A stretch of 64,000 bases of DNA, taken from NCBI RefSeq assembly GCF_004168365.1, contig NZ_CP035704.1:1426001-1490000 (forward strand). The letters run 5' to 3'. Shown here in pieces: positions 11,219 to 60,214 of the stretch. This DNA comes from Pseudolysobacter antarcticus. GTDB lineage: Bacteria > Pseudomonadota > Gammaproteobacteria > Xanthomonadales > Rhodanobacteraceae. Positions within the stretch are counted from its first letter, which is position 1. Each line of letters opens with the position of its first letter. The notes beneath the pieces are model-generated. The model ran no database searches. It worked only from the letters and a program-made list of their open reading frames with translations, and was not told where the DNA came from. The position numbers and the translations under genes were made by a program.

Positions 11219-13252
11219 TTACCAGATCTTTACCTGAGTTTCGGCGCTGCGCACCATCACATCACCGGGCTTGCACTGGAAAGTCTGCGCGAATGCCGGC
11301 ATGTTCGATGGCGCACCCATTGCGCGAAAGCGTGACGGCGAATGCGGATTGGTATTGACGAGTAATTTCAGCGCTTCATCGCGATACTGGCCTTCCCAGA
11401 CATGCGCGAACGCGATGAAAAAGCGCTGCTCCGGAGTGAGGCCATCGATCACCGCCTGCGGATGTTTTTTCAGCGCCGCATGCAGCGCATCGAACGCAAC
11501 GTTGATGCCGCCGAGATCGGCGATATTCTCGCCGAGCGTGAGTTTGCCGTTGACGTGCAGATCGCCGATCGCGATGTAATCGTCGAACTGTTTCACGAGC
11601 TTGGCGGTGCGCGATTCGAAGTCTTTCTTGTCGGCCGCGGTCCACCAGTCGTGCTGATTGCCCTTGGCATCAAACTGACTGCCTTCGTCATCAAAACCGT
11701 GCGTCATTTCGTGGCCGATCACGGCGCCGATCGCGCCGTAGTTCAGCGCGTCGTCGGCTTTTGCATCGAAGAACGGCGGCTGCAGAATCGCTGCCGGAAA
11801 CACGATTTCGTTGAGCAGCGGGTTGTAGTACGCGTTCACGGTTTGCGGCGTCATGCCCCATTCGCGGCGATCCACCGGCTTGCCGATCTTGCCCATTTCC
11901 CAGGCGTGATTGAACTTGTCGGCGGCGCGGATGTTCGCGACATAACCATCGCGCGAAATGCTCAATCCGCTCCAGTCGCGCCACTGGTCGGGATAGCCGA
12001 TCTTCGGCATGAACGTGGCCCATTTTTCGAGCGCCTGCTTCTTGGTTTGCGCACTCATCCAGTCGAGATTTTCGATGCGGGTCTTGAGCGCGTCGTGCAG
12101 ATCGTTGACCATGTCCTGCGCACGTTGCTTGGCTTCGGGCGGGAAGGTCTTGGCGACGTACAACTCGCCGAGCGCCATGCCCATTTCGCTGTTGGTGGCG
12201 CCGAGCACGCGTTTCCAGCGCGGTTTGTTTTCCTTCTGTCCCTGAAAGGTCTTGCCGGTGAACGCGAAACGCTCATCGACGAACGCCTTGCTCAATGCCG
12301 GCGCGGCGGAGGCGACGATATGGAAACGGAAATATGCCTGCCAGTGCGCGATCGGCGCCTCGGCGATGAGCTTGTCCATCGTCGCGAAAAATTCCGGCTG
12401 CGCGAGCGAGAAACCGGTCTGACCGTTTACGCCCTGCGCGGCAAAATATTTCAACCACGAAAAATGTGGCGTCGTCTTGTCGCCCTCAGCCATGCTGACG
12501 AGATGATATTGGTTGTTCGGATCACGCAGCGCGACCTGCGTCAGCGACGCACTCGCGAGCTTGGTTTCGAGATCTACCACCGCTTGTGCCTGCTTGCTTG
12601 CGTCGTCTTTTTTCACGCCGACCAACACCAGCAGATTGGCGACATGCGCCTGATATGCGGCGAGCAGTTTTTTCGATTCGGCGTCGGTCTTGAGGTAATA
12701 ATCGCGATCCGGCAAACCGAGTCCGCCCTGATTCGCGAAACCGATCGTCATCGTCGAATTCTTGAAATCCGCACCACGCTCGAAGTCGAACAGTAGCGCA
12801 TCGCCTTGCGCTGCGTAGTCGCGCACGAGTTCGGCGATATCATCGGGATTGCGCAAACCATCGACTCGTTTCAGGTCGTCCTTGATCGGCGTGTAACCGG
12901 CCTTTTCGATCGCGGCCTCGTCCATGCCGCTCGCGTAAAAATCGCCGATCTTTTGCTGGATCGTGCCCGCTGCGGCCTTGTTCAACGCCATCGCGTCGAG
13001 GATGTCGTGCTGCGCCACAAGCGAACGTTCGCGCAACTTGTTGAACGTGCCCCAGCTGGTCTGGTCGGCTGGAATCGGATCGTTCTTCATCGAGATATTG
13101 TTGACGTAGCCGAAGAAGTCGGTGCATGCACCAGCCTTGCTGTCGAGCTTGGCCGGGTCGATGCTGCTGCGTGGTGCATCGGCCGCCGCGGCGCCAAGGG
13201 CGAGTGTGATAGCGGCGGTCAGGGCAAAGGGTTTTAACAAGCGAATGATCAT
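11219..13252 (-). CDS. M13 family metallopeptidase (array copy 2)
   Basis: This 677-residue M13 zinc peptidase starts at MIIRLLKPFALT, with AGGAAA six bases before the ATG. It has an alanine-rich signal peptide ending near GAAAA. The zinc motif is HEMTHGFDDEG, the third ligand is in GENIADLGG and the substrate stretch is NAYYNPLLNEIVFP. Asparagine-alanine-tyrosine variants (NAYY here and in copy 1, NAQY in copies 3 and 4) split the array into two pairs and may reflect different peptide preferences. It lies 119 bases upstream of copy 3 and 133 bases downstream of copy 1 on the same strand. Confidence 0.93.
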   Translation of the reverse strand: MIIRLLKPFALTAAITLALGAAAADAPRSSIDPAKLDSKAGACTDFFGYVNNISMKNDPIPADQTSWGTFNKLRERSLVAQHDILDAMALNKAAAGTIQQKIGDFYASGMDEAAIEKAGYTPIKDDLKRVDGLRNPDDIAELVRDYAAQGDALLFDFERGADFKNSTMTIGFANQGGLGLPDRDYYLKTDAESKKLLAAYQAHVANLLVLVGVKKDDASKQAQAVVDLETKLASASLTQVALRDPNNQYHLVSMAEGDKTTPHFSWLKYFAAQGVNGQTGFSLAQPEFFATMDKLIAEAPIAHWQAYFRFHIVASAAPALSKAFVDERFAFTGKTFQGQKENKPRWKRVLGATNSEMGMALGELYVAKTFPPEAKQRAQDMVNDLHDALKTRIENLDWMSAQTKKQALEKWATFMPKIGYPDQWRDWSGLSISRDGYVANIRAADKFNHAWEMGKIGKPVDRREWGMTPQTVNAYYNPLLNEIVFPAAILQPPFFDAKADDALNYGAIGAVIGHEMTHGFDDEGSQFDAKGNQHDWWTAADKKDFESRTAKLVKQFDDYIAIGDLHVNGKLTLGENIADLGGINVAFDALHAALKKHPQAVIDGLTPEQRFFIAFAHVWEGQYRDEALKLLVNTNPHSPSRFRAMGAPSNMPAFAQTFQCKPGDVMVRSAETQVKIW

Positions 13253-58768: not shown

Positions 58769-59941
58769 CTAATTGGTTTTTTGGCTTAGAATTCTGTCTA
58801 TTGAATCCATAATATTGGATATTGTGGAAATTGTTTTGTCAATCTCGTCAATAAAAATGTCTTGTGCACTGCCAACCGCGCGTTTCGCGCGATTCAATTC
58901 GGTAGTAAGTCGCGGGAATGCAGCAAATGTCTTTTTGAAACCAATCATGGAGTTTCTACAATTACTCATGGTTGTTGAGAAGGTTTCAAGACTGCTGTGG
59001 AGAGAGATAAGTTGAGTATCATTCGTGTTGTTAAAGTCTTGTTGTAGAATTATAGACTTACCAAGCGCGTCGTACGCTGCGCTTTGGGATTTGGAAATCG
59101 ATTCAGATTGTTCGGTCATTGATTTTGCGTAAGTATTCATATCTTCCGCAGACATTTTCATTATATTTCTCGCGGCTTTCCTGTCGATCGGCTGTTCGAG
59201 TTCAGAAATAGCTTTCGTCCTTCGCTCCATTTGTCTTGTAAAGAGATTCGCGGCTTCTGTTATTGTGTCTAAAATTAAGCTTGTTTCAGCAGTTCTGGAT
59301 TCAAATATTTCAATGTAATCTAGATAGCCTAGCTCATCTTCATCTTCATTATATGGATTATCTATAGTGGGTTTAGTCTGAATTTGCGTCGTAAGCGTCT
59401 TTGATGTGGAGCTGGAAAATTTCCTGACCAAAGCCGCAAGATGTGTTCGAAGCGATACCTTGAACTGGTCTTGACTATCAAATACAGAGTACAAACCGCC
59501 CATCGCAGCGATTGAATGCTTGAAATCCTGTACTTTCTGCATTTGATGCATGTCGAATTTAGATGGTGCAATGGGAGTATCTTTAAAATAAATCATTATC
59601 TCGGGAGCGATTGAGTTCGATTTAAATCTTTCGTAAGCTCGATTAAACTCTTCAATTGTTCCGGACTGCGCTCTTGGTGTTTGCGTGCCTATTCTTCGCC
59701 AAAGTATTCCTATAAAAACGTCATATCCATCACCAATTTGTCGATTTATGATTTCTTGTGGGTCTTGAGAAAATTCCGGACGTGTATCGGTCTCCCATTT
59801 CAGTAGTTCAAAAACTACTCCGTATTCTCTTGCTACGTTACGGTTTACTTCGGTGATGGCGTTTTCAAGAATCTCTCTTTCAGGAAAAACGTCTGATGGG
59901 GAAGATGCGAAGACCTGAACAATCGTTGCCGTTCTGGGCAT
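58769..59941 (-). CDS. AT-rich DUF4062 protein with helical tail, possibly acquired
   Basis: The product has 390 residues from MPRTATIVQVFASS. The frame stays open upstream to 60091 but without a good start. Residues 7-100 match the DUF4062 pattern: VQVFASSPSDVFPEREILE, then DGYDVFIGILWRRIG and FNRAYERF. No STAND NTPase domain follows, although DUF4062 often fronts one. The C-terminal half (from about 190) is long helices rich in Gln/Ser/Asp, with no obvious membrane segment. Two sampled 60-base rows are 27% and 38% GC against 58% in pmbA. It stands alone, opposite to its neighbours. The function is unknown and a defence role is only a guess. Confidence 0.8.
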   Translation of the reverse strand: MPRTATIVQVFASSPSDVFPEREILENAITEVNRNVAREYGVVFELLKWETDTRPEFSQDPQEIINRQIGDGYDVFIGILWRRIGTQTPRAQSGTIEEFNRAYERFKSNSIAPEIMIYFKDTPIAPSKFDMHQMQKVQDFKHSIAAMGGLYSVFDSQDQFKVSLRTHLAALVRKFSSSTSKTLTTQIQTKPTIDNPYNEDEDELGYLDYIEIFESRTAETSLILDTITEAANLFTRQMERRTKAISELEQPIDRKAARNIMKMSAEDMNTYAKSMTEQSESISKSQSAAYDALGKSIILQQDFNNTNDTQLISLHSSLETFSTTMSNCRNSMIGFKKTFAAFPRLTTELNRAKRAVGSAQDIFIDEIDKTISTISNIMDSIDRILSQKTN

Positions 59942-60214
59942 ATTCTTGGCCAATTTAGCTGAGCAGATTTGAATAGCCCACTTATTACACATTATAAATA
60001 TTAAGTCTAGTCGGTTGCGGCGATTCTTTGTGGTGCCTCTCGTTTCGAGTGCGATAGAGGTTCGTTCGCACCATTCGTCACGTTTTGGCAACTCAGTAAC
60101 GTGGCAGAATGTGGAGTCAGACTGAGGATCAAGCGCTTATGCGCTAACAACCGGCCTCCGCAACACCGAAGGTTGTGGCAATTTTTAAATCCTTACCCCT
60201 AAACAGGAAGAACT

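Follow-up and report, generated by a model that had tools for sequence, protein, structure and literature searches.

The 64,000-nucleotide stretch of Pseudolysobacter antarcticus DNA analysed here (the window; positions 1,426,001 to 1,490,000 of contig NZ_CP035704.1) contains a gene for a 390-residue protein that joins an N-terminal DUF4062 domain to a long helical tail, and that probably encodes a horizontally acquired, one-gene defence NADase (an enzyme destroying nicotinamide adenine dinucleotide, NAD+) acting by abortive infection, with its tail as a second kind of DUF4062 sensor. DUF4062 has been described as the TIR-like NADase and killer part of Swarozyc, a one-gene anti-phage system (PMC13174449, a preprint of May 2026). 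The Swarozyc protein KpSwz protects E. coli from phages, requires glutamate E97 and a C-terminal auxiliary domain, and lowers NAD+ upon infection, the phage portal being its switch (PMC13174449). The domain, fold class, conserved glutamate, common tail family and distribution (horizontal and tied to mobile elements) of the window protein were computed here; NADase chemistry and an abortive outcome are proposed for it because of its homology with KpSwz. In the resting cell the DUF4062 protein would be inactive; the tail would sense infection, the triggered front half of the same chain would destroy NAD+, and the infected cell would halt before phage release. The initial annotation had called the gene stand-alone, rightly, and perhaps anti-phage, which it probably is, and the two roles that it offered, "sensor or effector", are best assigned together to the one chain. 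Its proposal of an undescribed system does not stand, because DUF4062 is already known as the NADase of Swarozyc and the N-terminal half is held in PADLOC as candidate PDC-S60. The enzymatic class having been described, the gene represents a variant of a known defence system, and the tail is the part of interest.

The front half of the protein matches the DUF4062 model (PF13271) at 27.5-27.9 bits, above the Pfam gathering cut-off of 24.7, and the model is matched by all eight members of the family scanned. The initial annotation had named this domain, and had taken the lack of a match as what would speak against it; the match is significant. An AlphaFold2 model of residues 1-177 (predicted local distance difference test, pLDDT, 81; predicted template modelling score, pTM, 0.78) has the TIR/nucleoside-deoxyribosyltransferase-like alpha/beta fold of the DUF4062 TIR-like NADases. 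Structural comparison of this model gives DNPH1 (Z 12.0, 2.7 A over 128 residues) and two NADases, the SPARTA TIR (Z 11.2, 3.3 A, 136 residues) and the RUN1 TIR (Z 11.0, 3.4 A, 141 residues); plain Foldseek gives weak E-values. When a front-half profile built from the window protein and its relatives is compared with all solved chains, the top match is KpSwz (10wc; E 0.0016, 21 bits), and the second glutamate of the SGTxEE motif aligns with the E97A position of that solved mutant. This glutamate, E98 in the window protein, is invariant across the nine full-length members, which all retain E97 and the flanking SG[TS] as well; among 23 diverse DUF4062 proteins, 22 have the second glutamate in the motif, the first being variable. 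The alignment suggests that E98 is the catalytic glutamate equivalent to KpSwz E97.

The tail is predicted to form four helices (206-247, 253-302, 309-340 and 347-389) of 32-50 residues each, without strands, the block having a pLDDT of 68-91. The initial annotation had described a long helical tail in place of an NTPase, in agreement with these predictions and with the lack of any P-loop match in residues 178-390 in Pfam, NCBIfam or PADLOC. The best-kept positions are G205, D208, A230, A265, A292, P343, N350, A352 and K353, and conservation extends to D267 and M268 beside A265 and to a run P343-R344-x-T346-x3-N350-x-A352-K353. Identity to relatives is 16-34% in the tail vs 34-52% in the effector half; this faster change, together with the position of the tail and with what the auxiliary domain does in KpSwz, suggests a diversifying sensor, which may also serve as oligomeriser. 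The KpSwz chain is absent from the tail-profile matches up to an E-value of 10. Among the architectures in the main text of PMC13174449, the four-helix tail is an undescribed part. It is plausible, if still somewhat doubtful, that it forms a second, unrelated class of DUF4062 sensor for a phage component other than the portal, in which case this would be a distinct type of defence having only the NADase in common with Swarozyc.

Other assignments of the tail were discarded. Matches to tape-measure protein, TMEM120, ZorA, LmuB and MG_279 families in Pfam, NCBIfam and PADLOC are weak, scattered and confined to one member each, as is typical of long helices; structural likeness to MukF (Z 13.8), STAT5 or syntaxin lies about in the usual range for helical bundles and was not used to assign a family. 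The weak genome matches of the tail profile that were inspected (E about 1e-4) are unrelated helical proteins without DUF4062, and the profile is too poorly conserved for finding more viral loci.

Compared with known systems, the window protein is closest to Swarozyc (KpSwz, PDB 10wc/11cq/11cv), with which it shares the single gene, the N-terminal DUF4062 TIR-like domain, the equivalent glutamate, a helix after that domain and a patchy, horizontal distribution. The 326-residue KpSwz chain, however, ends in a portal-binding helix-turn-helix/winged domain (as described in the paper), whereas the window protein has a tail of about 190 residues that is predicted to be all-helical and has no sequence match to KpSwz. 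PADLOC PDC-S60 aligns at profile positions 4-235 with residues 8-243 (E 3e-50), and eight of eight members scanned match it, but the profile is 906 positions long and the remaining 670 or so have no counterpart. DUF4062-STAND/NACHT proteins (TEP1, NWD1, NPHP3 and bacterial STAND NTPases) have a similar N-terminal domain, but the window protein lacks their P-loop NTPase and repeat sensor. With TIR-APAZ/SPARTA and other TIR NADase defences it has in common the fold class and the presumed NAD+ depletion, but it is encoded by a lone gene, without an Argonaute or signalling partner.

The gene was probably acquired horizontally. Its guanine plus cytosine content (GC) is 40.3% vs 58.7% in the window (z = -5.7 against same-size windows), and at third codon positions it is 37% vs 65-75% in tldD, pmbA and the peroxiredoxin gene; no other 500-base stretch of the window falls below 50%. 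The deviant composition and the place between pmbA and the peroxiredoxin gene are thus as initially annotated. Relatedness does not track host kinship, which points to transfer: identity is 41% to the members from a Pseudoalteromonas metagenome-assembled genome, a provirus contig and another class, vs 29% to a member of its own family, and 36% to one of its order. The whole architecture is common to eight other proteins of 369-401 residues, the four-helix prediction being that of the window protein. A DUF4062 match occurs in 24 of 369 genomes of the class and this tail in three of them, the window's included; the full-length family is rare, with three clear cases in the 299 genomes searched from the order and two in the 398 from the phylum, again with the window's own. 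The other DUF4062 proteins encountered have GGDEF-like, TPR-like, NTPase-like or short unrelated C-terminal parts. No paralogue was found in the same genome and no match among phage records (INPHARED). Within the host's family, a separate DUF4062 gene (L074:9680-10547) is interrupted by a single in-frame TGA.

Full-length relatives are usually single genes, with different neighbours in every case, so that the conserved housekeeping contexts named at the outset as contrary evidence did not appear. The Pseudoalteromonas relative (L002) is an integron cassette (integron integrase, 459 bits; attC hairpin, z -2.9), like the defence cassettes of Darracq 2025, Getz 2025 and Kieffer 2025, as cited in PMC12444791; the window copy differs from these in having no attC. 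A PD-T7-5 defence gene lies 7 kb from this relative (E 1.5e-107), and two near-identical copies of another cassette flank the DUF4062 cassette (L002:9494-9847 and 11244-11648). One relative lies on a provirus contig and another adjoins a tyrosine recombinase, a helix-turn-helix gene and a PIN-domain gene. Of 32 species in the genus of G250, one has a homologue, on an insertion of about 1.8 kb at the gltD terminator. This insertion has TGGGCTTTTT at either end, and in a sister species the site is empty. The 557 bases behind this homologue (L073:8957-9513) carry short inverted repeats, and two short pieces of them recur in a related species (L159), perhaps as a small mobile repeat.

Table 1. Features of the DUF4062 locus, in window positions
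Feature	Position	Strand	Length
Entire gene (390 aa): DUF4062 (TIR-like), then helical tail; candidate for single-gene defence	58769..59941	-	
Effector half, residues 1-177, DUF4062; predicted five-stranded TIR/nucleoside-deoxyribosyltransferase-like fold	59411..59941	-	
S-G-T-I-E-E-F motif, residues 93-99; E98 the putative catalytic glutamate (KpSwz E97 equivalent)	59645..59665	-	
Low-confidence linker, residues 178-201, pLDDT under 50	59339..59410	-	
Tail, residues 202-390, four long helices; putative sensor/oligomerisation half	58772..59338	-	
Non-coding gap of intermediate GC, up to the peroxiredoxin gene; single copy in the genome	59942..60214	.	273 bases

Several observations weigh against reading the gene as a horizontally acquired NADase of abortive infection. 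The protein resembles KpSwz weakly in sequence (the E 0.0016 and 21 bits given above), and a DUF4062 fold does not guarantee an NADase, because no such activity was seen in NWD1, NWD2 and NPHP3, which have the domain (PMC13174449). Nucleotide N-hydrolases are also among the fold matches, which leaves room for a different substrate. No defence genes adjoin the gene in the window, nor is there a recombinase or attC at the gene to mark a route of arrival, and an empty site is not demonstrable, because pmbA and the peroxiredoxin gene are not consistently adjacent within the family: the assembly of the sole congener is interrupted within pmbA and does not contain this peroxiredoxin gene, and in other genera pmbA is followed by different genes. 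An anti-phage protein whose DUF4062 domain acts on another glycosidic substrate (deoxynucleoside monophosphates, nucleosides) or makes a signal molecule, instead of plainly depleting NAD+, would fit the best structural neighbours by Z, which are DNPH1 and deoxyribosyltransferases, and the SGTxxE signature suits the nucleosidase/deoxyribosyltransferase and TIR groups alike; this is nonetheless unlikely, as no companion effector gene stands beside the window gene or is common to the relatives. That the domain is catalytically dead or a regulatory scaffold, with DUF4062 merely oligomerising, agrees with the lack of NADase activity in several human DUF4062 proteins (PMC13174449), but the conservation of E97, E98 and SG[TS] in nine of nine members makes it highly improbable.

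Relatives occur on a provirus contig, in an integron and next to recombinase or toxin-antitoxin-like genes, and other DUF4062 genes adjoin phage terminase genes; these settings could also speak for a gene of mobile-element stabilisation or exclusion (superinfection exclusion, toxin-like maintenance), of which the host would hold a stranded copy. This overlaps with a defence function, because prophage-borne defence genes do both, and as an account of its own it is quite unlikely, the window having no antitoxin partner and the frame being intact with all conserved residues kept. The place between pmbA and the peroxiredoxin gene might suggest an ordinary housekeeping or stress gene tied to one of them, a view that deserves next to no credence: among the 60 relatives searched only two have the full architecture and three more a DUF4062 match alone, the neighbours always differ, neither pmbA nor the peroxiredoxin gene forms a conserved neighbourhood, and the base composition is foreign. 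The defence NADase is the preferred reading.

The reading frame of the gene is intact over 390 codons, and its start was set at ATG 59941 and not at TTG 60091, because long homologues begin M-[PAS]-[RK]. The initial annotation had extended the feature over 58769-60214; the gene is indeed at this site, on the minus strand, but it reaches only to 59941, its start, and the remainder up to 60214 is non-coding. Promoter and terminator scans around the gene are on a par with shuffled sequence, and no convincing attC, Rfam RNA, repeat or mobile-element copy was found there. No attC candidate lies 3' of the gene, where the pmbA stop and its own stop are 30 bases apart; this spacing is the stronger argument against a cassette, because the site at L002 likewise escaped the strict core pattern. 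The host's own integron lies 2.6 Mb away (L120:6791-7735; G000:C2:4106791-4107735), with an integrase of true integron type (470 bits) and, on the right of this, attC-like sites; genes for a transposase, a glyoxalase-like protein and an acetyltransferase-like protein lie alongside.

Human TEP1, part of the vault particle, has DUF4062 as well, so that how such NADases switch on can be learned from each of the bacterial DUF4062 sensors. Being compact, at 390 residues, and having a different sensor, the window protein would be an easy system for asking which second phage signal triggers the domain, and its relatives add an example of lone defence genes moving as integron cassettes or single-gene insertions. 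In four unrelated phage or prophage sequences a DUF4062 gene lies directly beside terminase genes (L065:5255-6178, L066:4740-6965, L083:4001-4573 and L119:1-1185), with two DUF4062 genes in tandem in L066; as KpSwz senses the portal, this position in the packaging module may exceed chance. In L065 the frame, which is cut off by the end of the contig, encodes DUF4062 followed by a GGDEF-looking domain; such a fusion would link cyclic-di-nucleotide signalling with a domain of NADase type.
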